Assembly (NCBI RefSeq): GCF_900143515.1
Contig: NZ_FSQT01000001.1
Coordinates: 2,542,001 to 2,606,000 of the forward strand
DNA: 64,000 nucleotides
Direction: 5' to 3'
DNA from: Micromonospora cremea
Lineage (GTDB): Bacteria > Actinomycetota > Actinomycetes > Mycobacteriales > Micromonosporaceae
This document shows, one piece after another, positions 10,203 to 62,805 of this stretch; the first letter of the stretch is position 1; the number at the start of each line of letters is the position of its first letter. The translations under genes were made by a program, and so were the position numbers. A model generated the notes under the pieces. The model saw only the letters and a list, made by a program, of their open reading frames with translations. It was not told where the DNA came from and made no database searches.

Positions 10203-13200
10203 CTACGACGGCTGCCAGCCCGCGTCGATCGCATCCTGAAGCCGCTTACTGAACACGGCATGCGCCTGCCGATACTCATTCTCCCGATCGGCCTTGTAGA
10301 ACGGCGCCACATAGCCGTTCGGCGGAAGTTCCATCTCTGGGGATTCCAGATATCTCACTAACCTAAGATGGTCTTCTTTCGACTGACCCACACCGAAAGC
10401 GTGGTGATTCGCCGCAATCTTTCGACCCGCATCATCAAACCAGGTTTCCGCTTCATAATCAGCCAAGATTGGAAATCTGGACCGATAGATGGATACCAGT
10501 TCCTGGGGAGCGATACCGAGCCACACCGCCACCAAGGCATCAATCTCTACGAGCGCCGCTCTACGCTCTTGCTCAGTACGCAGGGCAGAACTCCACACCC
10601 ATGAGGGTCCAACATCAGCTAGAGGGCGAGCGGGCCGTTGGCTAATCGACCAGTTTTCGTTGGAAGGCCATGCAGGATCGTAAACCTCCGACCACAGCGT
10701 CGAATAAGCGCGGGTCATGCAATTTAGTCGCAGGGTTCGGATTGCCAACGCGGCCGCGAGCGGATGATCAGACTGGGGAGCAGGAAAGTTGCGAGCCTCC
10801 GTCATCCGCAAATGGTTCTTACCCCAAACTCGGAGCAGATAGTCCAGCGGAAGTGACGCCCAGAAACCCGCGACAAGAACGGTTCCCAACGACTCCGAGA
10901 GCCTCATCGTATTTACTGCATCAACGTGAGTCGGCCCAGGCGGGATAAGAGCAGCATGTAAGCTACGCTCAGTATCGAAAGGGACCATCTCTCGCCAAGC
11001 TAGTCGATAAAAGCGAGAGTACCTCTGACCATTCCAGTTGTCTTGTGCCGACTGGAATTTATCAAGAGTGGTGGAGCGACGGTAGTTGGCCCGAGGAACG
11101 GTATCCGCATCCATGCTGCTTGGGTCAAATGCCTGCCAGTCACGATTTGACTTGCAGGGAACGTTGGGCTGTTTCGCCAATGGCGTAGCTATGCCGATAT
11201 GAGTGCCTTGGAGAACGATCGAATCCCAATCCTCGCGAGATCCCGTGTCCCAAACGATTAGCCCGTCCTTCTTGGCCTTTCCTTCATCGAATCCGAGGCT
11301 TGTCACTGGATGGAGATGATGTAGGCGGCGGCTGGCCTGGGCGAGCGCAAGCATTGCTCCATCCTCTACTGACGTAACCGGGAACAGCAACCTCGTCTGT
11401 TCTACCGACTCCTGGCCGCCCAGCAACTTTCGCCAGTGTTTTAGCCGATCTTGGTCTACCGTCACAAGGCGAGCGCGATGAGGGCGCAGTTCCCATCGCC
11501 CATCATGCTTGATACCCGGCGCTTCTCCGCTCCCATCATGAGTTAGGGAGGCGGTGAGCGAGCCAGGCGCGAAAAGCCAACTAACGTGTGTGAAATTGAT
11601 GGAACCGGTAGCGCCATAGAGGTGGACGCCGAACTGCCGCGTCCCTGCAACCTCATCAAACAGCTGTAGGCGATTCGAGAAGTGCGCATGGAATCTAAGA
11701 TGCCTGTAGGCAGCCGCTCTAAGCTTACCTTCGCGAGATCCCGCGAAATGCGTGTCCGGATGGATTAGGCCAGCGATTCCGGATTGCCCGAGGTTCTCCC
11801 ATGCCCGGCACATAAATGCGCGGTACAGGTCGGGCCGGGTGCCATCAAGAAGTGGGTATGTAACGGCACCACCAAGGACTTGCACCACTCCAACGTTCAT
11901 TGCCAACTCCGAAAGGAAATACTGGAGCCAGCGGTCATGCTTACTGAATTGCTCCGCTTTCCGCTTCCGCCACTCCTCCGTCGTCGGCCTCTCCACGAGC
12001 CGAAACCAAGGGTCGCTCTCCGCGAGCACTACATCTTCAACCCAATCGGGCCGCACCCACGGCGGGTTGCCTACCTGGAGGTCGAAGCCGCCCTCGGCGA
12101 AGGCTTGGGCGAAGGTTAGTTCCCAGTGAAAAAAGCCTTGCTGCTCGGCGATCTGGTCGGCAGCGAGAAGCCAGGGGAACCGATCGGAGAGGGTCCAGGG
12201 TGAATCGACACCGATGACCCCGTCGAGCTTCCGCTCGAACTCGCTCATCTCGCTCAGGCTCGTGAGCTTTCGGCCAAAGAACCGTTCGGTATTCTCATCC
12301 GCGTCACTTCGCCCGATGAGCGCCTCGGCGAAGGTCAACCAGTCGTCGAGGCTAGACAGCGGCACCTGCTGACGGAGTTGTTCCGCCACCGTCATCCGCC
12401 GGGTGCCGCCGGTCAGCTTGGTCGGGAGCTTCATCTGCTGCGGTTGCACGTTGCCGAAGATGTCCGCGGTTTCGTAGACGGCCGGTTCCTCGTACGCCGG
12501 CTCGTCCTTGATGTGCGAGACCTGGACGGGCGCGGCCGGGTAGACCGGGTCGGAGCCGTCGAGCAGCCCGACCTTGTCCAGCGGCCAGAACCACAGCGCG
12601 CACCAGACGTCCATCAGCGTCTTGAGCCGCCAGTACGGCGTGCCCGGCGCGGTCAGGTCGGCGAGGATCTCCTCCCGGGGCACCGCCTCCGTGACCTTCG
12701 GCAGATCCTCGGCGCCCCAGACTGCGATGTCGCGGCGGATCTCCCGCTCGGAGATGTCGAGCCGCTGCTGCACCAGCCCCCACAGGAACTCGACCCGCCG
12801 AGCGAGAGCCTGCAAGCGCTGGACCTGCGAGTTCTTCCCCTTGGCTGACGGCGTGCGCTTCATCGCCGTACGCCACGCCTTTAGTCGGGCGGTCTCAGCC
12901 GGCGCCAGCTCGCGGGCCTCCTTCTCCCCCGCGACCGCGCCCCAGCCGTCGGCGGGGAGCAGGAAATGGTGGATGGTGCCCTCGTCGATCGGCCCGTCCC
13001 GGAAGGGCTGCTCCTTCGGCGTGGTGGTGAGCCATGACTTGTCGGCGAGCTGCTTCGGGCCGTAGGTCTTGCGTCCGGCGCCGATGAGGGAGTTGCCGCG
13101 TTGCAGGTGCAGGCCGAACCAGGGTGCTTGGAGGCCGGCGTGCATGACGTTGAGCCAGAGCGACACCTCGGCCAGTTCGACGGCGGTTCGGTTGAGGTCG

Positions 13201-15119
13201 ACGCCGTAGCTGTTGTGCAGGGCGATGTACGCCTTCACCCGCTGGAGTTCGAGGTGGTAGTCCTCCGGGTCGAGGGTGACCTCCAGCTCCTTCTGGCGGC
13301 GCCGCAGGTATTCGGCGGCGACCTGGTTGATCGCCTCGTTGAGGAACGCGCCGGAGCCGAGTGCCGGCTCACAGATCGTCCAGTCCAGCAGCTCACGGGC
13401 CGGGGTGATCGTGTCGTCCTGGTCGAGCCGGTACTTGAGGGCGAGCTGGACGGTGACCTCGGTGAGCGACTGTGGGGTGTAGTAGGAGGCGCTGGTCTGC
13501 CGGTCGCGGCCGGCGAGCCGGTAGACGAACTCACCGGGTTGGTGACTGACCCGGCTGCGAACGCCGGTGTACGGGTCTTCCTTGTAGACGAAGACACCGT
13601 CGTCGTACTCGTCGACCTTGGAGGCCGGAATCATCCACGAGCCATCCTTCGGGTCGCCGTCTTTGGCGACCTCGTATAGCTGCTCGGTGGCGACGAACCC
13701 GGTGTACGACATCAGGCCCTCGTAGACCGCGCCGAGCTGGTTGATGCCAAGCTGGGCGTACGAGATGAAGCCGCCGCGGCGCTTCTTGCCACCCTTGGTG
13801 AGCATCAGCCGGCGCAGCACCTCGTAGAGGACCTTGTTACGCAGCCGCGTGTCGATCTTCGGTGCGTGCTCGTCGTCGGGGTCGCTGCCCGGCTCGGCGA
13901 TCAGCCGGCCGATGAGCTTGGTTTTCTCCGGCAGGAACAGGTCGGAGCGCATCGGCTCGAAGCGCAGCCCCTCCCCCTCGCTGGCCTTGTCGTCGACGTC
14001 CGCGCCGCCGCGCGGCCGGTGCCCCTCGTTGACCATGCGGAAGAGCAGGTCGAGGGATTCGTACAGGTGGGTGCCGTCCTCGGCGGAGGGAGCGAGGCGG
14101 CGGGAGACGAGGTCGCCGAGGCGGGCAAGGCTGTAGCCCTCGACGTACTGGGGGTCGTTGACCGGCAGCACACCCAGTTCGGGGCGCGCCTCGGCGTAGA
14201 GCAGGAACAGGATCCGATAGAGGTAGCGCAGCGACTCCCGGCCCAGCTCCTTGGCCAGCTCATCGAGGTCCATCACCTGCTGCGGGTGGAAGCCGGCCCG
14301 GCGGATCTGGTCGAGGACCTCGTTGGCGATGAGCTCCACGGAGACCTTCAGGCCCTCGCGGAGTTCGCTGGAGACCCCGACGGCGTGCTGGCGGGAGCCG
14401 GCGACCAGTTCGGCGAGGGGTTCGGTGCCGCCCTCGGCAGGCGGACGCAGCGAGTCGGCGCCGAAGAGCGCGGCGACGACGTCGAGTTCCTTGTCGTCGT
14501 TGCGGGCGTACGCGGTATCGAGGCTGACGGCCAGGTAGCGGCCCTCGCCCCAGACAGTGCGGTCGGCGAGAGTGATCACGCCACCGCTGAGGATCAGCAC
14601 GTAACGGGGCTTCGGGCTGTCGGCGGCGAAGAGCAGCGAGGCGAGCTTGGCGCCCGTCTCGATGGTCTCGGTGCTCGACAGGGTGAGCGGGTCGAGCAGG
14701 CGGCCGGCGTCCTCCGGGTCCTGTGCTGCCTCGGTGTCGACCGCCCAACCGCAGTCCAACGCGACAATGCCGTGTGCGGTGGTCAACTCGGCGTGGGCGA
14801 CGCTGACCTCGTACTCCTGGCCGTTGCGCTCGACGGTGATGGTCTGCGGCTGCGGGTCGAAGTCGAGCGCCCGCAGCACGTCCTGGTGCTGCTTGCGCAG
14901 CCGCTCCGGGTCGAAGAAGTCGACGTCGGTCAGCTCGGTCTTGGCGTCGAAGTACTGCCGGCGCATGCCGCGCAGGTTCGTGCGTGGCGTGCCCTCCCCG
15001 GCTTTCTCCTGCTCGGCCCACTGCTTGAGCAGACCGCCCTTGAGGGTGGTGGGCAGGATCTCGGCGAGGTAGTGCGCGGAGAGGTACTCGCCGCGGTTGG
15101 TCAGCGACTCGAAACTCAT
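10203..15119 (-). CDS. Large Eco57I-type N6-adenine DNA methyltransferase (restriction-modification or defence)
   Basis: 1638 residues, start ATG overlapping the helicase stop (ATGA). Layout: N-terminal region to about 560; SAM-binding motif I EPALGSGAFLNEAI near 585; a long helical insert; catalytic motif IV GNPPWVRPDW with Asn at 1018; then a roughly 600-residue C-terminal part expected to carry target recognition, ending in FYKADRENEYRQAH and SKRLQDAID. Size and motif spacing resemble the methylases of DISARM class 1 (DrmMI) and Hma-type systems more than a stand-alone enzyme. There is no obvious PD-(D/E)XK nuclease N-terminus, so DNA cleavage is not supported. From about 12,120 down to 10,350 the GC content falls to about 53-57% in samples I counted, against about 65% upstream. 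Confidence 0.85.
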   Translation of the reverse strand: MSFESLTNRGEYLSAHYLAEILPTTLKGGLLKQWAEQEKAGEGTPRTNLRGMRRQYFDAKTELTDVDFFDPERLRKQHQDVLRALDFDPQPQTITVERNGQEYEVSVAHAELTTAHGIVALDCGWAVDTEAAQDPEDAGRLLDPLTLSSTETIETGAKLASLLFAADSPKPRYVLILSGGVITLADRTVWGEGRYLAVSLDTAYARNDDKELDVVAALFGADSLRPPAEGGTEPLAELVAGSRQHAVGVSSELREGLKVSVELIANEVLDQIRRAGFHPQQVMDLDELAKELGRESLRYLYRILFLLYAEARPELGVLPVNDPQYVEGYSLARLGDLVSRRLAPSAEDGTHLYESLDLLFRMVNEGHRPRGGADVDDKASEGEGLRFEPMRSDLFLPEKTKLIGRLIAEPGSDPDDEHAPKIDTRLRNKVLYEVLRRLMLTKGGKKRRGGFISYAQLGINQLGAVYEGLMSYTGFVATEQLYEVAKDGDPKDGSWMIPASKVDEYDDGVFVYKEDPYTGVRSRVSHQPGEFVYRLAGRDRQTSASYYTPQSLTEVTVQLALKYRLDQDDTITPARELLDWTICEPALGSGAFLNEAINQVAAEYLRRRQKELEVTLDPEDYHLELQRVKAYIALHNSYGVDLNRTAVELAEVSLWLNVMHAGLQAPWFGLHLQRGNSLIGAGRKTYGPKQLADKSWLTTTPKEQPFRDGPIDEGTIHHFLLPADGWGAVAGEKEARELAPAETARLKAWRTAMKRTPSAKGKNSQVQRLQALARRVEFLWGLVQQRLDISEREIRRDIAVWGAEDLPKVTEAVPREEILADLTAPGTPYWRLKTLMDVWCALWFWPLDKVGLLDGSDPVYPAAPVQVSHIKDEPAYEEPAVYETADIFGNVQPQQMKLPTKLTGGTRRMTVAEQLRQQVPLSSLDDWLTFAEALIGRSDADENTERFFGRKLTSLSEMSEFERKLDGVIGVDSPWTLSDRFPWLLAADQIAEQQGFFHWELTFAQAFAEGGFDLQVGNPPWVRPDWVEDVVLAESDPWFRLVERPTTEEWRKRKAEQFSKHDRWLQYFLSELAMNVGVVQVLGGAVTYPLLDGTRPDLYRAFMCRAWENLGQSGIAGLIHPDTHFAGSREGKLRAAAYRHLRFHAHFSNRLQLFDEVAGTRQFGVHLYGATGSINFTHVSWLFAPGSLTASLTHDGSGEAPGIKHDGRWELRPHRARLVTVDQDRLKHWRKLLGGQESVEQTRLLFPVTSVEDGAMLALAQASRRLHHLHPVTSLGFDEGKAKKDGLIVWDTGSREDWDSIVLQGTHIGIATPLAKQPNVPCKSNRDWQAFDPSSMDADTVPRANYRRSTTLDKFQSAQDNWNGQRYSRFYRLAWREMVPFDTERSLHAALIPPGPTHVDAVNTMRLSESLGTVLVAGFWASLPLDYLLRVWGKNHLRMTEARNFPAPQSDHPLAAALAIRTLRLNCMTRAYSTLWSEVYDPAWPSNENWSISQRPARPLADVGPSWVWSSALRTEQERRAALVEIDALVAVWLGIAPQELVSIYRSRFPILADYEAETWFDDAGRKIAANHHAFGVGQSKEDHLRLVRYLESPEMELPPNGYVAPFYKADRENEYRQAHAVFSKRLQDAIDAGWQPS

Positions 15120-17917
15120 GCGGCACTCTCCGAGGACGGTACGAGGACGGCGAGCACCCGCAGCAGCGGGTCGCCGGCGGTTTCCAAGCGGTCGAGCAGG
15201 TCGTGCTGCTCCTGGACGGTGGTGTCGACGCGTTGGCGTCGCTTCTCCCGGTGCGCACCGGGCAGCTCATCGAAGAGGCTGGCCTGTTGGAAACTCTTCA
15301 GCTGCTGGCGGTGCTTCTGCAGCGGCTCGGCGTTGGCCTCGGCCCACTCGGCGCGCTTGCCCTCCAGGTACTGGCGGGCGACGTCGACGGCCTCCGGCAG
15401 CAGTGCCTTCAGCGGTTCGATCGCGATGGCCTCGGCGCGGTTGACCATCGTCGGGCCGACGTTGGCTTCACGCAGCACCTCGTCCATCGGCCGGATCGTC
15501 GGCGACGCGGGCAGGTCGGAGACGGCCATCCACTGGACGACGGTGGGTTGGCCGAGACGGTTGGCGTAGACGCCCTGGATCAGGAACGTCGGCGCGGCCA
15601 CGTCGGCGGTGAGCACCGGGGCCTGTTGGCGGCCGAGCCGGATCAGGACCTTGTCGACCAACCAGTCGACCATCGGGTGCACGTCACTGAGGAAAGCGAT
15701 GTCCGGCCACATCGGAGTCTTGCTCTGCCGGGCCTGGTCGAGCTTGCGCTGCGCGAGGGCGCGATCGAAGGTGACCTTGAGCCGCAGGTCCTCGCCCTCG
15801 CGGTGGGCGCGCAGGTAGGTGCGGGGCAGGTCGGTGAGCCGGTGCACCAGGTCGTCTGGGGCGAGGAAGGTCATCAGTTCGTCCTCGCGGCGCAGGTCGA
15901 TGTGGTCCTCGGGCCGGTCCTCGTAGATCTCGTAGAGGGCGGCGTCGACGAAGTCCTGCGTGGAGGCGAAGAGCTTCGGCACCCGGGCCAGGGGCACGTC
16001 CGCCGCCACGGGCGCTGTGCCCACCTCCGCAAAGAGGTCGGCCATCACGTCGACCTCGGCGTGGGCAGCCTCGTAGGACTGGTCCACCGACTTGCCGGCG
16101 AGCAGGTCCCGGACCAGCCGGTCCTCCTCGGCCTTGGCGTCGTACTGGCCCGTCACGGCCTCGACGCTGCCGAGGCTGCGGTGCGCGGTCTCCTCCCGGT
16201 TGAGGAGCTTCTCGGCGACCGTCCGGTCGTCCTTGGCGTCCTCGCGGTCGGAGGTGAGGATCAGCGCGCGGAACTGCGGCTGGTGCTTCTGCCCGTAACG
16301 GTCGATACGGCCGTTGCGCTGCTCGATCCGGATCAGACTCCACGGGATGTCGTAGTGGATCAAGTGGTGGCACTGCTGGTGCAGGTTGACGCCTTCAGAG
16401 GCGACGTCGCCGGTGAAGAGCAACCGGACGTCGCTGCCGGCCAGCTCGAACTCCTGCAGGATCGTCTGCTCGTCCTTGTCGGCCACACCGCCGTGCAGCA
16501 CCCGGATCGCGTTCGGCTTGAGGCCGAGCAGCCCGGGGACGACCTCGGCGAGCCACTTGATGGTCGGCACTCGCTCGGAGAAGACCACGGCCCGCGTGTC
16601 GCTGCCCCTGCCGACACCGATTTTCCTCAGCTCGTCGACCAGTCCCTTGAGCTTGCTGGAGCCCCGGTCGGTCATCGCGGAGGTCAGCTCCGCGAGCCGG
16701 TCCAGCGCTGCCCGCTCAGTGCCGGTGGTCTTGTCGCGCCGATTCTTCACCGTCTCGTGCAGCGCCCGGTGCGAGGACAGAAAGGACTTCAAGAGGGTGT
16801 ACGGGAAGAGCCGGTGCTGCCCGGTGATCGCCTCGTCGGTCCACTTGCCGGCCAGCCACACGTCGGTCAGCTCGTCGAAGATCTGCTCCTCGATGGGCGT
16901 CGCTGTGCAGTGCAATGCCTGAGAGGGGCCACGGTCAGCCCAGCGGTCACCGATCTGGTCGCGTACCTCCGGGCTGATCTTCGTGCGGCGCAGGTAGAGG
17001 TGGGCGATGTCACTGGCCTGGTAGTCCTTCTCGTTGGCGATGGCCGCCGGGTCGAGCAGCGAGATCAGCTGTGCGAAGGACTCCTTGTCGCCGTTGTGCG
17101 GGGTCGCGCTGGCCAGCAGCAACGCGTCGGTCTTCGCAGCCAGGCGGCGGGCCAGCTCGTTGCGCTGCGTGCCCTTGTTGATGAGGTTGTGCGACTCGTC
17201 GATGACCACGGCGTCCCAGGTCGTCGCGTCCAGGTGATGGCCGAACTGGCCCGCGTCCTTGAGGGTGTCGACCGAGATGATGGCCCGCTTGAAATAGGTG
17301 AACGGGTTCCGCCCAGCCGGGATCTCCTGCTGGATGCGTTGAATACCGGTCGAGTCGAGCCGGACCAGCGGGATCGCGAACCTGGTCCACAGTTCTCGTT
17401 GGAACTGTTCGAGGACCTGCTGCGGCGAGACAACCAGGATGCGCTCACCTCGGCCCCGTCGGATCAGCTCAGCGAGGATCAGCCCGATCTCCAGGGTCTT
17501 GCCCAGGCCCACCACGTCAGCGAGCAGGATCCGCGGCCGCAACCCGGACAGCGCCAACTCGACGGGCCGCTGCTGGTAGGTCAGCGCGTCGAGCAGGAAC
17601 CGGTCGGCGAGGGCCAACCCACGCTCGGTGCGCGGCAGCGGAGTACGCCGCAGCACCGCCTCTAGGAAGAGGCGGCTCTGCCGGAACCGCGACGACGTGT
17701 CCTGAACGAGCTCCGTCTCCTCGGGCACCAGCGGCGTGATGTCCTCAAGCGCGGTGAAGAAGGTCGCCTCGACATCCTGGACGAACTCGGAGACGCCGAC
17801 CGCCTTCACCATCGTGCCGTCCGCGGTGCCGGTCTTGACGCTGCGGATCAGCCATTCCTCGTCGCGTACGACGATGCGGGAGCCCGGGGCGAAGGTCGCG
17901 GCCTGGGAGGTGGTCAT
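15116..17917 (-). CDS. SNF2/DEAD-like superfamily 2 helicase (DrmD-like)
   Basis: 933 residues from ATG 17917, with GGAAGG ahead; a longer frame to 18223 overlaps the kinase and is rejected. Walker A VVGLGKTLEIG lies near 133, motif Ia ILVVSPQQVLEQF follows, motif II is DESH near 237, and motif III reads ASATPH. The C-terminal helicase lobe has VLHGG, LLFTGDVASEGVNLHQ and IEQRNGRIDRYGQ, the SNF2/Rad54-type motif V-VI pair. This matches the large SNF2-like helicases that accompany Eco57I-type methylases in DISARM class 1 and Hma systems. It starts 14 bases after the kinase stop, and its stop overlaps the methylase start. It is likely a DNA translocase of the operon. Confidence 0.85.
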   Translation of the reverse strand: MTTSQAATFAPGSRIVVRDEEWLIRSVKTGTADGTMVKAVGVSEFVQDVEATFFTALEDITPLVPEETELVQDTSSRFRQSRLFLEAVLRRTPLPRTERGLALADRFLLDALTYQQRPVELALSGLRPRILLADVVGLGKTLEIGLILAELIRRGRGERILVVSPQQVLEQFQRELWTRFAIPLVRLDSTGIQRIQQEIPAGRNPFTYFKRAIISVDTLKDAGQFGHHLDATTWDAVVIDESHNLINKGTQRNELARRLAAKTDALLLASATPHNGDKESFAQLISLLDPAAIANEKDYQASDIAHLYLRRTKISPEVRDQIGDRWADRGPSQALHCTATPIEEQIFDELTDVWLAGKWTDEAITGQHRLFPYTLLKSFLSSHRALHETVKNRRDKTTGTERAALDRLAELTSAMTDRGSSKLKGLVDELRKIGVGRGSDTRAVVFSERVPTIKWLAEVVPGLLGLKPNAIRVLHGGVADKDEQTILQEFELAGSDVRLLFTGDVASEGVNLHQQCHHLIHYDIPWSLIRIEQRNGRIDRYGQKHQPQFRALILTSDREDAKDDRTVAEKLLNREETAHRSLGSVEAVTGQYDAKAEEDRLVRDLLAGKSVDQSYEAAHAEVDVMADLFAEVGTAPVAADVPLARVPKLFASTQDFVDAALYEIYEDRPEDHIDLRREDELMTFLAPDDLVHRLTDLPRTYLRAHREGEDLRLKVTFDRALAQRKLDQARQSKTPMWPDIAFLSDVHPMVDWLVDKVLIRLGRQQAPVLTADVAAPTFLIQGVYANRLGQPTVVQWMAVSDLPASPTIRPMDEVLREANVGPTMVNRAEAIAIEPLKALLPEAVDVARQYLEGKRAEWAEANAEPLQKHRQQLKSFQQASLFDELPGAHREKRRQRVDTTVQEQHDLLDRLETAGDPLLRVLAVLVPSSESAA

Positions 17918-17930
17918 CGGTGGTGCCTTC

Positions 17931-18995
17931 CTACAGGGTCGAGCGGCGGGCGTACTGGCGGCGCATCTTGTCGACCAGCCAGGTGACGTCAGCACGTGGG
18001 TTGGCGGGCCGCTCGGGGTCGACCTTCGTGGGTGTCGTCTCCGGCACCGGGACGGTGTCCGCCTCGATGACCGGTGTGCCCTCCGGGTCCTGTCGCGGAT
18101 CATCCAGGTCCGGCGGAACCAGCAGCTCGGTGTCGCCGTCGTAGGTGAGCGCCGCCACCTCCTGGCGCAGGGCGTGGACGCTCTTGCCGCTGACGGCGGT
18201 GGCGACCGCGAGCAGCCGAGCACGAACGTCGGTCAGGCCGGGTCGGGCGGTGGGGTCGAAGGCGAGCATCGTGCCGAGCAACTGCACCAGCTCGGCCGGC
18301 ACCTCGGAGAGATCAGGAAGATCGGCCGGCTCGCTGATGCGCAGCAACAGGTTCCACGAGTTGGTCGCCGGGTAGAGCCCGTGGCCGGTGAGAGCGAAGA
18401 CCAACGTCGCGGCGAGGGCATAGATGTCGACCGCCGGGGTGAGGTCCCGTTCACCCTTGACCTGCTCGGGTGACATGTACGCGGGAGTGCCGACCAGGGC
18501 ACCCGGCTCGGTCAGGTAGTCGTCCCGCTCGATCAGCACCGCAAGACCGAAGTCGATGAGCTTGGGGCCGTCGGGGCCGAGGATGATGTTCTGCGGCTTG
18601 AGATCGCGGTGCAACAGCTTGACCTGGTGCACCTTGGCGAGGCCTTCGGCGAGCATCGCGCCGGACATCGCGGCCAATGGCAGCGGAAGCGGCCCTCGCG
18701 CGTCGACATGCTGGCGCAGCGTGGCGCCGGGGACGTACTCCACGGCGAGCCAGGCCGGGTTCGCGTAGGGGTCGGCACCCTCCAGGCGGGCAACCCGGGA
18801 TCCGAAGACCAGCTTGAGGCTGTCGACCTCGGCGGCGAACCGCTCGCGCACCGTGGGCGCCTCGATGAGGTGCTGCTTGATCACCTTGACGGCGACCCGC
18901 TCGGCGGTCGGCGACACCGCGAAGAAGACATCGCCCATACCACCTGAGCCGAGCGGCCTGACCAGGTCATAGCCGCCGATTTTGCCCAGCGTCAT
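17931..18995 (-). CDS. Soluble Ser/Thr protein kinase, first gene of the operon
   Basis: 354 residues, ATG preceded by GAGGGGGACGA. All kinase landmarks are present: Gly loop LGSGGMGDVFFA, catalytic Lys in VAVKVIK, HRDLKPQNIILG, DFGLA and the activation-segment end MSPEQ. The kinase domain fills about residues 8-270. A short acidic, Pro-rich tail follows with no transmembrane or PASTA segment, so it is cytosolic. It may gate the helicase/methylase by phosphorylation, as kinases do in other defence systems, but that is inferred from operon position only. Confidence 0.9.
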   Translation of the reverse strand: MTLGKIGGYDLVRPLGSGGMGDVFFAVSPTAERVAVKVIKQHLIEAPTVRERFAAEVDSLKLVFGSRVARLEGADPYANPAWLAVEYVPGATLRQHVDARGPLPLPLAAMSGAMLAEGLAKVHQVKLLHRDLKPQNIILGPDGPKLIDFGLAVLIERDDYLTEPGALVGTPAYMSPEQVKGERDLTPAVDIYALAATLVFALTGHGLYPATNSWNLLLRISEPADLPDLSEVPAELVQLLGTMLAFDPTARPGLTDVRARLLAVATAVSGKSVHALRQEVAALTYDGDTELLVPPDLDDPRQDPEGTPVIEADTVPVPETTPTKVDPERPANPRADVTWLVDKMRRQYARRSTL

Positions 18996-57580: not shown

Positions 57581-57734
57581 TGATCCTCCAGGACGATGAC
57601 CGGGAACGAGCGCGTACGACGAAAAGTTTCTATACGTCGATGGATAGTGACAGAGATCTTCTCCAACCGAAAGCCTCCGGACCCCGGTGGGCGGTGGACC
57701 TGCCAACGAGGGCCAGCCCCGGCCGGGCGCTGCC

Positions 57735-58883
57735 ATGACGTATGGTGCCGGCATGGCGCACCCCGTCCGCGCCGACGGCGAGGCCGCCGAGGCGCTGCAC
57801 CCCCCCGCGGTGATCCCGGCCTGGTGGGCCGCCCCGCCACCGCGGTTGGTCAGCCACCTGCCGGACGTCGACCCGGAAGTGCTCCGGGTGGCGCTCGACC
57901 CGCTGCCACCGGCAGCTCCCGCGATCGTGCACTACCGGCCAGCGGTCGTGGGTTCGCTCGGCGACCTGGTGGATGCTCTGCTCGACCAGCTGGATTCCGT
58001 GGCGCTCGCAATGTTTCCCCGCTGGTTGCCGACGGCCGACCGCCTCGACGGGGAGGGGATGCTCGGCGTGGCTGCGGTCCGCGCCCTCGCAGCGCGCGCA
58101 GCGGCCCGCTCCCGGCACTTCGGCCCGTTCCTCGCGGATCTCGCCGAGCGCGGGCTGCGCTTTCCACGCCGGCCCGGTGGTCGGTCCCGCTTCCCGGCGG
58201 AGGTACGCGCCGCCGGGCTCGCCCGGGTGATCGCCGAGGCGTACGACCGGGAGGGTTGCGTACTTCTCGTCGCGCTGCCCGATCTGGGTCCGGACGCCGA
58301 ACGGACGCTCGTGGCCGCGGCCGAGTGGCTGGTGCGGCACAGCGGCTTCACGGTGTGGCTGACCGGCGCACCCCTGCGCCATGCGGACCGGATCCGCTCG
58401 GTGACCGTGACGGTGCCGGCACGGTTCGCCGACCTGGTCGTCCCGACCGGCCGAACGCCCGAGACAGCCACCCGACGGGAGTCGATGCTGCTGGCCTGGC
58501 CGCCGATTGCCGGCGTGCCGCGCGGTGACAGCGCCGCCGAGCAGGCGCTGGAACGCGCGCTCGCGCCGCATGCATGGGCGCGGGGCCGGCGCTGGAACCA
58601 GACGTACGAATGGCATGTGCTCGGCGAGGCGTACCGGCTTGACCTCTTCTGGCCCGCTGAGGGTCTTGCGGTCGAGGTGGACGGCCCGGAGCATCGGGGG
58701 CCGATAGCTTTCGCCAACGACCGGCGGAGGGACGTGCAGCTGCAACTTCTCGGGCTGGACGTGCTTCGCTTCACCAATGAGCAGGTGCTGTCCGACGCGC
58801 CGGCGGTGGTCGACGGGATCCGTCGACTGCTGGCCCGGCGACGCGCGGATGGCACGCACCCCCATGGAGATGAGACATCATGA
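57735..58883 (+). CDS. DUF559/Vsr-like PD-(D/E)XK nuclease, first gene of a three-gene operon
   Basis: 382 residues from ATG 57735; ATG 57753 is an alternative and neither has a good ribosome site. The N-terminal 280 residues are unassigned (helical, with VVVPTGRTPE). The C-terminal domain EWHVLGEAYRLDLFWPAEGLAVEVDGPEH, then DRRRDVQLQLLGLDVLRFTNEQV, matches DUF559/Vsr-type endonucleases: D and the E-V-D pair fit the active site. The stop overlaps the next start (ATGA), so this likely supplies DNA cleavage in the system. Confidence 0.8.
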   Translation: MTYGAGMAHPVRADGEAAEALHPPAVIPAWWAAPPPRLVSHLPDVDPEVLRVALDPLPPAAPAIVHYRPAVVGSLGDLVDALLDQLDSVALAMFPRWLPTADRLDGEGMLGVAAVRALAARAAARSRHFGPFLADLAERGLRFPRRPGGRSRFPAEVRAAGLARVIAEAYDREGCVLLVALPDLGPDAERTLVAAAEWLVRHSGFTVWLTGAPLRHADRIRSVTVTVPARFADLVVPTGRTPETATRRESMLLAWPPIAGVPRGDSAAEQALERALAPHAWARGRRWNQTYEWHVLGEAYRLDLFWPAEGLAVEVDGPEHRGPIAFANDRRRDVQLQLLGLDVLRFTNEQVLSDAPAVVDGIRRLLARRRADGTHPHGDETS

Positions 58884-59554
58884 CGAGCCCGGCGGACGTT
58901 CCGAGTCTGACGCCGAACCAGGTCAACGCCCTCGTGGTGCTGATGGCCGAGGCGCGCCGCCTCACCAATGTCGAGCTACGTGAGCTGGCCGGCTTCGCGC
59001 TGACCGGCAAGGACAATGAGAAGCTCGTCAAGCTGGGCCTGGTCGAGACCGACCGGACGCACCGGCCGTTCGCCCACGAGCTGACCGACGTGGGCTGGCG
59101 CGTGGTACGCCAGCTGCACACCACCGCGCCGCCGAAGCAGGGCGGCTCCGCCACCCGGTCCATGTTCACTGTCCTGTCCAACCTGCACCGCTCGCTGGAT
59201 CGGCTCCGGGTCAGCCACGGCGACTTCTTCAAGCAGAACGATGGGGCGACTCCGGCCGCCACCATGCCTGACTCCGCCGCCCCGGCGGCAGGGGACGTGG
59301 AGACGCTGGTTCGCGCGGCGTACCGGGACCTGGCCAATGCGCCGGGCGCCTGGGTCGGGCTCGCCGACGTCCGGGACCGCCTCGCCAACACCGACAGGAC
59401 GACCGTGGACGCGACGCTGCGGGCGATGGTCGGCCGCGAGGATGTCCGCATCATCCCGGTGGCGAACACCAAGTCGCTGACCGCACGCGACCGGGCCGCG
59501 GCCGTACGGATCGGGAACGAGGACAACCACGCCCTGGCGATCGGCCCGGCGTGA
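58880..59554 (+). CDS. Winged-helix-like protein, middle gene of the three-gene operon
   Basis: 224 residues, ATGA overlap with the nuclease stop and a GTGA overlap with the ATPase start. N-terminal half resembles a winged helix (QVNALVVLMAEARRLTNVELRELAGFAL, KLVKLGLVETDRTHRPFAHELTDVGWRVV). A second similar region occurs at VETLVRAAYRDLANAPGAWVGLADVRDRL. It probably binds DNA or the partner ATPase. No known family recognised. Confidence 0.7.
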   Translation: MTSPADVPSLTPNQVNALVVLMAEARRLTNVELRELAGFALTGKDNEKLVKLGLVETDRTHRPFAHELTDVGWRVVRQLHTTAPPKQGGSATRSMFTVLSNLHRSLDRLRVSHGDFFKQNDGATPAATMPDSAAPAAGDVETLVRAAYRDLANAPGAWVGLADVRDRLANTDRTTVDATLRAMVGREDVRIIPVANTKSLTARDRAAAVRIGNEDNHALAIGPA

Positions 59555-62500
59555 TCTCTGAAGAGCAGCGGGCCGCCCTGGAGGCGGTGAGCCTCAACCC
59601 GGCTGTCACCCCGGACGACGTCTGGCGGCCCAGCCGCCACAACGTGCCCGAGCTGCACGAGAAGGTGGTCGCGGAGATTCTCCGTGGGGTGGCGCGGGCG
59701 CGAACCGACGACACGACCGTGCCTCTCGGCGTGGCCATGCAAGGCCGCGCGGGCGCCGGCAAGACACACCTGCTCGGCGCGGTCCGGGAACGCATCCAGC
59801 ACGGCGGCGGCTACTTCTTCCTCGTCGAACTGGTGAGCGGTAAGACGTTCTGGGAGAGCGTCGCCCTGGCACTGGTGGAGGGCATGGGTCGCGACGCGAT
59901 CGGCTGGGGCACGCAGCTGCGAACCTTCCTGCGCCGGCTCACCGCGCAGCTCGGCCTGCCGGTCGACGTCCGTGACGCGGTCGCCGGCGCCCGCGAGGTG
60001 AACCGTGAGCATCTGGACGCGTTCATCCGGGCGCTGCGCACCCGCGATCGTGAGGTTGGACGGGACTGCCAGGACACCGCCCGGGCGCTCGTCCTGCACG
60101 GCGCCATCGACTTCGAGGCGCAGGACGTGGGTTACGGCCACCTGATCTCCGAACCGGGCGAGCCGGGCATGAGGGCCGCATGGGGGCTGAGCCCCGCGAT
60201 ACGCACCCCGCAGCAGATCGTGCAGGACATCTCCCGGCTGATGGCCCTCACGCTGGACCCGACGGTCATCGCCGTAGACCAGCTCGACACGCTCTTTGCC
60301 CAGACCAGCACGTCGCTGCTCGACCAGCACGCCGGGATCGAGGACGGCCAGGCCAAGATAATCGGCCCGATCGCCGACGGCCTGCTCAAGCTCCGTGACG
60401 TCACCCGCCGGACGCTGCTCGTCGTCTCCTGCCTGCCGGACACCTGGGAGCTGCTGACCCGCAGCGCACCGACCCCGGTCGGCGACCGGTTCCGCCAGGC
60501 GACCCTTCCGGACCGGATTCCCAGCCCGGAGATCGGCCGGGCGATCGTGGCAAAGCGGATGTCGGCCGCATTCGCGGACCCGCACTTCGTACCGCCCCAC
60601 CCCACCTGGCCCATCGACCCCGCTGCCTTCGCCGACGCGCCCACGCTGACTCCTCGCGCTCTGCTGCGGCGGGTGGACCGCCACGTCGCATGGTGCCGAG
60701 ACCGCGACGAGGTTGTGGAACTCGACCGACTCATCGACGGCGTCGACGTCACACCGACTCCGGCCACCGCTTTCGGCCTGCCCGGCGACGTGACAGCGGA
60801 CGAACGGCAGCTGGGCGAGTTGGACGTGCGGTTCGCTGAGCTGATCGCGGCGGCGGACGTGGGGGCCGCCCTCACCCCGACGACCGAGGACGAGCAGATG
60901 CCGCCGCTGCTCGCGGCCGGCCTGGCCGCCTGGATCGCCGAACAGGCCCCGACCGGCGCCACCTACAAGTACGACCCGCCGCCCGGGCGCAAGCCCGCCC
61001 TGCACGGACGGCTGATCGAGGTACTCGACGAGGCGACCGAGAATGAGGCGCACTGGTGCTTCCGGGCGATCGCGCACCCCAACGCGATCGCCGTCACCGC
61101 GCGGGTCAAGGCCGCCTGCACCATGGCTGGGTTGGACCGGGACCTGCCGCAACGACGATTGGTGCTGCTGCGCAACGGTGCGTGGCCGAGCGGGAAGCGT
61201 ACGACCGAGGTGTTGACCGCATTCGACGTGGCGGGCGGCGTCCGGTGCGGGGTGACGGAAGCGGACCTGCGGGTCTTCGCGGCGCTGCGGGTGATGGCGG
61301 CCGAGCCGTCCGCCGCGTTGCAGGAGTGGCTGGTCGCCCGTCGCCCGGCCAGCGGCACCGACCTGTTCCGGGCGGTCCTGCCCGGGCCCGACCCCACGTC
61401 CGGCGACACCGTAGCCGGCCCGGCAGGCGCGCCGCCCGCCGACGTGGCCGGTGGACCCTCGACCAGTCCCGGCGCCGCTCTCGTGCCTGCCGGCGCTGAC
61501 GCGGCCGACCTAGTGGCCGATGCCGCCGACCAGACCCCTGACATCGTCGCCGCGGCGGTCGACGGGCGGTCGATCGGGCTCGGACGGACCGTCGAGGAGG
61601 GCGAACCCTTCACGGTGGACCTGGAGTCGCTACGTCGGCACGCCGTCGTATTCGCCGGCTCTGGCTCGGGCAAGACGGTGCTCATCCGCCGGCTCGTCGA
61701 GGAGTGCGCCCGGCAGGGCGTCTCCGCCATCGTGCTCGACCCCAACAACGACCTGGCCCGACTCGGCGACCCGTGGCCGGACCCGCCGAGCGGCTGGACG
61801 CCCGGCGACGCCGAACGGGCCGCGGACTACCTCGCCCACACCGAGGTCGTGGTGTGGACGCCCCGGGTCACCGCCGGCCGTCCGCTGAGCTTCCAGCCGC
61901 TGCCCGACTTCACCTCGCTGCGGGACTGGCCGGACGAGTTCGACCAGGCGATCCGCTCCGCCGTGGAGGCACTCGCGCCGCGGGCCGGTGTCGACCGGTC
62001 GACCAGGCTGGCCCAGCAGGGCAAGGCCGTCCTCACCGAGGCCCTCCAGGCATATGCCAGGAGTGGCATGGTGGGCCTGTCCGGCTTCACCGAGTTCCTC
62101 GCCGATCTGCCCGACGGGGTCAGCCGGCTGGCCCGCGCCGACAAGCTCGCTCAGGACCTGGCCGAGACGCTGAAGGCGGCGATGGTCACCGACCCGCTCT
62201 TCGGTGGGGTCGGTGCGCCGGCCGACCCGGGGCTGCTACTAACGCCGTCGCCGGGACGGCGGGCGCGGGTGTCGGTGATCAGTTTCATCGGTCTCGCCTC
62301 CGACCAGGAACGGCAGAGCTTCGTCAATCAGTTGCAGATGGCACTCTTCGCCTGGATCAAGCGGCACCCCGCGGGCGATCGGCCACTGGGTGGGCTCTTC
62401 GTCATGGACGAGGCACAGACGCTCGCCCCGTCCACCGGGAACACGGCCTGTACGGCCAGCTCGATCGCCCTCGCCTCGCAGGCCCGCAAGTACGGGCTCG

Positions 62501-62805
62501 GGCTGGTTTTCGCCACCCAGGCGCCCAAGGGCCTGCACAACCAGATCTCCGGCAACGCGACGACGCAGTTCTTCGGGCTGCTCAACGCGCCCGCGCAAAT
62601 CGACGCGGCCCGTCAACTGGCCGAGGCCAAGGGTGGGCGGCTGCCCGACATCGGCCTGCTGAGCAGCGGCGAATTCTACGCGGCTGGGGAGGGGTTCTCG
62701 TTCGCCAAGGTCCGTACCCCGCTGTGCCTCACTCACCATCCCAAAGCACCGCTGAGTCCCGAGGAGGTCATCGCCCGCGCCCGCCCGGGCAGCGCCGACA
62801 GCTGA
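59551..62805 (+). CDS. Double P-loop ATPase: AAA/STAND-like N-terminus fused to HerA/FtsK-like helicase
   Basis: 1084 residues from GTG 59551. First P-loop GRAGAGKTHLL at 65-72, with a DQLDTLFAQ segment later as the likely Walker B. Second P-loop AGSGSGKTVLIRR near 705, followed by IVLDPNNDLARLGDP, Walker B GGLFVMDEAQTL near 950 and FATQAPKGLHNQISGNATTQFFG. These mark a HerA/DUF87-type DNA translocase core. Two unlike ATPase modules in one chain are unusual. Coupled to the nuclease and winged-helix genes, it could move DNA for cleavage in an anti-phage system. Confidence 0.85.
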   Translation: MISEEQRAALEAVSLNPAVTPDDVWRPSRHNVPELHEKVVAEILRGVARARTDDTTVPLGVAMQGRAGAGKTHLLGAVRERIQHGGGYFFLVELVSGKTFWESVALALVEGMGRDAIGWGTQLRTFLRRLTAQLGLPVDVRDAVAGAREVNREHLDAFIRALRTRDREVGRDCQDTARALVLHGAIDFEAQDVGYGHLISEPGEPGMRAAWGLSPAIRTPQQIVQDISRLMALTLDPTVIAVDQLDTLFAQTSTSLLDQHAGIEDGQAKIIGPIADGLLKLRDVTRRTLLVVSCLPDTWELLTRSAPTPVGDRFRQATLPDRIPSPEIGRAIVAKRMSAAFADPHFVPPHPTWPIDPAAFADAPTLTPRALLRRVDRHVAWCRDRDEVVELDRLIDGVDVTPTPATAFGLPGDVTADERQLGELDVRFAELIAAADVGAALTPTTEDEQMPPLLAAGLAAWIAEQAPTGATYKYDPPPGRKPALHGRLIEVLDEATENEAHWCFRAIAHPNAIAVTARVKAACTMAGLDRDLPQRRLVLLRNGAWPSGKRTTEVLTAFDVAGGVRCGVTEADLRVFAALRVMAAEPSAALQEWLVARRPASGTDLFRAVLPGPDPTSGDTVAGPAGAPPADVAGGPSTSPGAALVPAGADAADLVADAADQTPDIVAAAVDGRSIGLGRTVEEGEPFTVDLESLRRHAVVFAGSGSGKTVLIRRLVEECARQGVSAIVLDPNNDLARLGDPWPDPPSGWTPGDAERAADYLAHTEVVVWTPRVTAGRPLSFQPLPDFTSLRDWPDEFDQAIRSAVEALAPRAGVDRSTRLAQQGKAVLTEALQAYARSGMVGLSGFTEFLADLPDGVSRLARADKLAQDLAETLKAAMVTDPLFGGVGAPADPGLLLTPSPGRRARVSVISFIGLASDQERQSFVNQLQMALFAWIKRHPAGDRPLGGLFVMDEAQTLAPSTGNTACTASSIALASQARKYGLGLVFATQAPKGLHNQISGNATTQFFGLLNAPAQIDAARQLAEAKGGRLPDIGLLSSGEFYAAGEGFSFAKVRTPLCLTHHPKAPLSPEEVIARARPGSADS

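Follow-up and report, generated by a model that had tools for sequence, protein, structure and literature searches.

The 64,000-nucleotide window analysed here (Micromonospora cremea, contig NZ_FSQT01000001.1, positions 2,542,001 to 2,606,000 of the forward strand) contains three adjoining genes, referred to as A, B and C, that raise the question of whether a nuclease, a small protein that probably binds DNA and a double P-loop ATPase serve together as a defence against invading DNA or as part of the cell's own DNA metabolism. An earlier note, made from the sequence alone, had described the three as one translationally coupled operon matching no system that it knew. The answer toward which we lean, with moderate confidence, is that A-B-C is an accessory anti-invader system, probably anti-phage and/or anti-plasmid, of the HerA/FtsK capture kind. 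The features on which this answer is built are the following, in coordinates of the window.

57735-58883, + strand: gene A, encoding a 382-aa nuclease (376 aa from the alternative ATG at 57753)
58629-58829, + strand: DUF559 nuclease domain in gene A (Pfam PF04480, E 4.2e-9)
58880-58883, + strand: ATGA, stop of A and start of B (sequence)
58880-59554, + strand: gene B, small protein, 224 aa, probable winged-helix
59551-59554, + strand: GTGA, stop of B and start of C (sequence)
59551-62805, + strand: gene C, double P-loop ATPase, 1084 aa
59725-60294, + strand: first ATPase module of C, AAA/STAND-like, faintly Orc-Cdc6-like (residues 59-248, Pfam AAA_16)
61579-62700, + strand: second ATPase module of C, HerA/FtsK-like (about residues 677-1050)

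The three open reading frames (ORFs) lie on the same strand, each neighbouring pair shares four bases, and no other gene was called inside the cassette. For relatives of C, one genome per species was scanned; 230 were found and the best 80 retained, every one of them under an actinobacterial record title, with Micromonospora proteins as the closest named relatives. Full-length C was the selection rule, and 77 loci have it, the other three being truncated at contig ends. B adjoins C in all 77, and A, scored as present if its match ended no more than 700 bases from the B match, accompanies them in 54. Of 78 called B-C pairs, 57 have a gap of -4, and an overlap of A with B is present in 41 of 51 called pairs. 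Because order and coupling recur among relatives, the arrangement is more than chance; the operon described in the earlier note has thus been borne out.

The assignment of A as a DUF559-type nuclease, already suggested in that note, is upheld by a C-terminal match, which spans residues 315-381 when the frame is counted from its opening at 57687; DUF559 is presumably a PD-(D/E)XK/Vsr-like fold. Residues D297, E308, D310, G311 and H314 (numbered from the start at 57753) are at least 90% conserved in 51 aligned sequences, and no Pfam family matches the first ~230 residues. A beyond the generic DUF559 domain follows C closely. Among 61 related genomes, full C was found in 20 (in two of them matched as two pieces) and the fuller A in 15 (in one case truncated by a contig end), always adjoining C; the 41 genomes that lack full C have no fuller A. 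Weaker A matches in these genomes span little outside the DUF559 domain, and the five genomes in which C has no adjacent A (G003, G012, G018, G019 and G021) have no fuller A match elsewhere.

C combines two P-loop modules of different type in a single protein, as had been claimed. In the first, the AAA-type matches at residues 59-248 are AAA_30 (E 2.3e-6, over the curated cut-off) and AAA_16 (E 4.4e-6, under it), and the Walker A motif G65xxGxGKT72 and the DQxD motif at 243-246 are invariant columns in 58 aligned sequences. When 29 aligned sequences were compared with Pfam at E up to 0.5, AAA_16 matched all 29, nSTAND_NTPase5 20 and ORC-CDC6-like 12 (best E 0.015), and no ORC/Cdc6 structure matched; the module is best named AAA_16/STAND-like, with a weak resemblance to Orc/Cdc6. 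The second module begins with a HerA DUF87 match (residues 677-739, Pfam E 8.3e-9), and HerA profile and PDB matches, the latter to HerA-type chains with a best E of 2e-7, extend to about residue 1050. Its Walker A motif GSGSGKT (703-709) and Walker B residues DE (953-954) are invariant in the same 58 sequences, except for S704, which is nearly so. No HAS-barrel family is among the Pfam matches of C. Given the invariant Walker motifs of both modules and the conserved residues of A, the two ATPase modules and the nuclease are all probably active.

B is the fastest-evolving part of the cassette, with a mean column identity of 28% in 66 aligned sequences against 54% for C in 58, and its residues 76-135 have a median identity of only 23% to the window protein. 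The winged-helix character proposed in the earlier note is favoured by faint matches: HTH_27 matches the window protein at E 0.2, and within the family (66 aligned sequences, E up to 0.5) HTH_27 matches six members, the DUF6293_C winged helix six and MCM4_WHD three; Pfam gives B no confident family assignment. Two units can be read by eye from the consensus, and B probably consists of a pair of winged-helix units with a variable linker between them. The B profile also matches calmodulin chains in PDB (best E 1.6e-5), a likeness that was set aside: no retained calcium-binding pattern was seen, and it is probably, though unproved, an artefact of helix pattern or composition. Profile alignment (hhalign) among the A N-terminal domain, B and C found no homology, and its positive control failed too.

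The cassette is accessory, patchy in the genus and in the class rather than fixed housekeeping. C is present in 27 of 61 Micromonospora genomes, at least 78% identical to the window copy in 13 of them and 52-54% identical in another 13, with a further diverged type in G001 and in G621, which holds a 52-54% copy too. At E 1e-60, a class-wide sample of 296 genomes in 114 genera has C in 32 of the genomes and 13 of the genera. The earlier note had named homologues at fixed housekeeping loci in most strains as one finding that would tell against it, and this is not the distribution seen in the genus and the class sample. Two diverged copies of C also occur together in Dactylosporangium vinaceum (L029 and L092), as they do in G621; the D. 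vinaceum copies differ upstream, with A in one and the c53 protein in the other.

In eight Micromonospora genomes the cassette lies between a WGR gene upstream and an ABM gene downstream of C (split over two contigs in G636). The same site is empty in two others, where the WGR and ABM matches are 19 bases (G638) and 56 bases (G640) apart. When these empty sites were aligned by BLAST to two occupied ones, the flanks of G638 abutted without a gap against the occupied site of G002, and about 30 bases remained unaligned between those of G640. The comparison of empty with occupied sites indicates that about 5.1 kb is present or absent as a unit. G640 has a 53% copy of C elsewhere and G638 has none. 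The genome from which the window comes has its ABM gene far from the cassette, so the site has been rearranged there.

The same three genes occur more widely. In Tsukamurella, A-B-C stands with vapBC and a DEAD/DEAH helicase gene within a ribosomal-protein operon; in the Tsukamurella tyrosinosolvens record (L146, "plasmid 22", 5541-14579) these and small genes split rplN from rpsQ, and a plasmid-labelled record thus bears ribosomal-protein genes. In another phylum, plasmid pMaq22A_1p of the alphaproteobacterium Methylobacterium aquaticum carries A-B-C in the same order, with a C 36-38% identical to that of the window. BLAST with the window A and B fails to find their counterparts on this plasmid, and the family profiles match its A at E 4.7e-34, its B at 1.1e-26 and its C at 5.7e-258 and none of 1135 other called proteins that served as controls.

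Capture systems in which a HerA/FtsK ATPase is coupled to an Orc/CDC6 ATPase have been described, reportedly by Rakesh, Aravind and Krishnan. In the available text of that paper (PMC10853773, NAR 2024), the Orc/CDC6 ATPase, an inactive restriction endonuclease (REase), which is inserted between the AAA core and its wHTH, an active REase of one of two families, HerA/FtsK and winged helix-turn-helix (wHTH) components share neighbourhoods as one or several polypeptides, and some neighbourhoods add a fast-evolving multi-wHTH protein. From computational analysis, such systems are predicted to localise on invading DNA and intercept it, interception being proposed during replication, conjugation or packaging (PMC10853773), and the available text of a later paper (PMC12839542) takes the theme up again and adds BRC systems. 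The parts of the cassette appear to match this kind as predicted in 2024: an AAA ATPase, HerA/FtsK, a nuclease of REase fold and wHTH protein(s). Here the HerA/FtsK ATPase is present, the nuclease is a DUF559 protein with conserved residues, and B evolves fast, with weak wHTH matches. The differences are that every one of the 77 full loci has AAA fused in front of HerA, that DUF559 and Vsr are absent from the main text of PMC10853773, and that a swap for AIPR, Mrr or WD40/Trypco1, described below, was not met in the text of it that was available. The view that the combination matches no known system has accordingly to be given up as regards this published, predicted kind, which is matched in parts, and it stands for the other systems compared.

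MADS, BREX/BRC, DndFGH and the two-gene HerA systems each fail a tested feature or lack a supporting match. The PADLOC mad8 profile matches the HerA half of C (E 4.6e-21), but MADS membership was rejected: mad8 also matches all 296 actinobacterial genomes and all 14 controls and is therefore generic, no other mads model in PADLOC matches A, B or C, and the four scanned neighbours in the window belong to other families (Pfam). C scores 19.4 bits against the curated HerA_antiphage model (NCBIfam, cut-off 800) and 9.5 against a second anti-phage HerA model (cut-off 850). DUF4297-HerA and SIR2-HerA have a separate HerA and are not known to include an AAA fusion or a B-like gene. The likeness to DUF4297-HerA and SIR2-HerA/Nezha is that a HerA motor is paired with an enzymatic effector, as far as the available text of PMC12948488 goes. 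BRC, in the available text of PMC12839542, likewise joins HerA/FtsK to a wHTH protein and an AAA protein of the Orc/Cdc6 type, but it has PglZ, DUF6079 and DUF4007, which have no match in A, B or C; PglZ and BrxC/DUF6079 were sought in the three proteins with Pfam and PADLOC, and with Pfam in the four scanned neighbours, where they also have none. DndFGH resembles the cassette in joining a HerA/FtsK ATPase to nuclease and wHTH parts (PMC10853773, available text), but DndH is ~1700 residues long, with REase and other domains, and no Dnd model matches A, B or C. No paper on HerA with DUF559 against phages, or on DUF559 with DUF87, was found in a literature search that covered few subscription papers and no preprints. 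Within the searches made, what is new is the fused AAA-HerA protein with DUF559, the compact cassette with its empty sites, and the differing partners.

Different partners sit in different clades of C. A tree of 78 C proteins was built by a quick method with SH-aLRT support only and rooted at the midpoint; on it the A-bearing state requires three changes, against 20.3 in shuffles. Ten loci without A form one clade (support 100) with a ~1340-residue WD40 protein divergent from B, in Micromonospora, Actinoplanes, Paractinoplanes, Asanoa, Pseudosporangium and Jidongwangia. In its representative (L039) the domains of this protein are trypsin-like, AAA/NACHT and WD40, and the small neighbour is Trypco1, a trypsin-co-occurring domain of conflict systems according to the available text of PMC7159879; the other nine loci were assigned by BLAST clustering alone, and the small gene was called in eight of the ten. 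A six-row clade (support 100) has an AIPR/AbiU gene 12-31 nucleotides downstream of C in five loci (by Pfam in L067 and L069 and by BLAST in the rest, L079 being truncated by a contig end) and, in the sixth (L085), an Mrr nuclease 89 nucleotides downstream.

Further neighbours are particular to one or a few loci. pPIWI_RE genes lie directly upstream of B-C in L069 and, by clustering, in L089 (Lentzea and Saccharothrix, from 826 and 735, respectively); in these two loci a pPIWI_RE island (PDDEXK, REase, DinG-like and PIWI) upstream and AIPR downstream make three adjoining conflict modules. L087 and L092, which have no A, have a protein overlapping B, with weak HTH and TPR matches in L087. Such a protein, of 664-743 residues, overlaps the next cassette gene in L055, L087 and L092 (A in the first, B in the other two), its L055 copy has a weak AAA match, and it is possibly a sensor. 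Also without A are L083, with a ParA-like protein that has weak TIR and CATASP matches, and L091, with a DUF4365 gene and a gene without assigned family. Two A-bearing loci have an extra protein on the opposite strand, PIN in L046 and CATRA-TIR in L080.

How the cassette might work can be sketched from its parts. B would recognise a feature of foreign DNA or of the invader's protein-DNA complex, and the AAA/STAND-like module of C, through its ATP state, would load the complex onto that DNA or switch it out of an off state. The HerA half of C would form a ring that pumps the DNA, and the DUF559 nuclease A, docked on this ring, would cut it. In some clades A appears to be swapped for AIPR, an Mrr nuclease or the Trypco1/trypsin-STAND-WD40 pair, and we infer that these alternative neighbours work with B-C. 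It is possible, though we propose it only tentatively, that B-C is a general sense-and-pump platform driving interchangeable effectors (DUF559 in most clades, AIPR or Mrr in others and trypsin/STAND/WD40-Trypco1 in one).

Several observations weigh against the anti-invader reading or against parts of it. The loci are not dense defence islands, and PADLOC enrichment near them is weak. Among the matches listed (the best 25 of 76 families near the cassette and of 41 far from it), AbiU/AIPR has five near matches, LmuC three and pPIWI two, each against at most one far, among 117 near and 87 far genes. The sets were drawn from 62 loci, 18 of the 80 having been omitted as redundant or partial, and from proteins of 100 to 1000 residues, hence without the large WD40 proteins; a near gene is the first on each side to pass these size rules, not always the immediate neighbour, and the far genes are 87 of 99 chosen, 12 near locus ends having been dropped by hand. 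Protein-kinase models match both sets, and alongside them mad6 appears in two near genes and one far gene and mad3 in two far genes. No effector was recognised beside B-C in three of the 23 loci without A: the scanned neighbours of L050 and L052 are an IMP dehydrogenase, an ATP-dependent DNA ligase, an alcohol dehydrogenase and a peptidase, and L054 has the alcohol dehydrogenase and the peptidase in common with them (clustering). C was found in none of 50,697 phage records and in no viral contigs. The empty sites are compatible with gain or loss of the cassette.

Two further points concern the likeness to the capture kind. The Orc/Cdc6 identity of the AAA module is weakly indicated and unproven. 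PF24389 (ORC-CDC6-like) exceeds its family cut-off in five of 246 genomes, and in the two full-length loci among these, L143 and L144, no HerA-like or cassette-like neighbour was seen by eye in the first 60 residues of called proteins (the L144 gene itself was missed by the caller). An inactive REase insert in C is likewise unproven, a by-eye pattern being suggestive only: residues 425-625 of C do not match the A-nuclease or Mrr profiles by hhalign, a comparison in which the control pair Mrr/DUF559 likewise failed.

It is unlikely that the cassette is instead a housekeeping or semi-housekeeping machine for processing DNA ends, in which, as in archaeal HerA-NurA, HerA would pump, the nuclease resect and the AAA module regulate. 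The frequency of relatives in Methylobacterium/Methylorubrum, which supply 40 names among the best 120 of 275 relatives of the pMaq22A_1p C, fits such a machine and could mean a core role there, where one such locus was read; the conserved site in one Micromonospora subclade fits it too. Against it are the absence of C from 34 of the 61 genus genomes and 264 of the 296 in the class sample (E 1e-60), the empty sites, the several diverged C lineages within one genus and the clade-specific partners.

Two other explanations keep a role in conflict and change the target. We give no better a chance to a barrier mainly against plasmids and conjugation rather than phages, which would intercept incoming DNA with the same parts. 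The capture model covers replication, conjugation or packaging alike (PMC10853773, available text), and the data here do not separate plasmid from phage targets. All retained loci are actinobacterial by record title. Actinobacterial conjugation can transfer double-stranded DNA. Less probable still is a self-directed, abortive switch, in which the STAND-like module would sense the invader and the partner (nuclease, AIPR or trypsin-STAND-WD40) would kill the cell. The STAND/NACHT-like matches of the AAA module and the conflict-type neighbours of C, namely AIPR, Trypco1/trypsin/NACHT/WD40, CATRA-TIR and PIN, agree with this, but the last two are single cases on the opposite strand, and the full loci all have a HerA DNA motor, most of them with a DNA-nuclease-type partner, which points to DNA as the likely target. 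An accessory system of the HerA/FtsK capture kind directed at invading DNA is the reading that we retain.

Elsewhere in the window, the genes scanned with Pfam beside the cassette encode WGR/beta-propeller, peptidoglycan-binding-domain and acetamidase/formamidase proteins, none of them an obvious defence gene. Two large ORFs on the - strand (10203-18223; 1638 aa and 1035 aa) have a four-base overlap as well.

HerA/FtsK capture with an AAA partner has so far been a prediction, as far as the available text of PMC10853773 goes, and the idea becomes testable with this compact cassette of three genes, which occurs in two phyla. The motor and the AAA module are in one protein, the cassette is short enough to travel as a unit, and the natural empty sites offer controls. 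The differing partners are a natural experiment in how a single DNA motor might power effectors of several kinds, and if B-C is indeed a platform for interchangeable effectors, HerA capture systems would be mechanically linked to the NLR-like conflict systems of bacteria.

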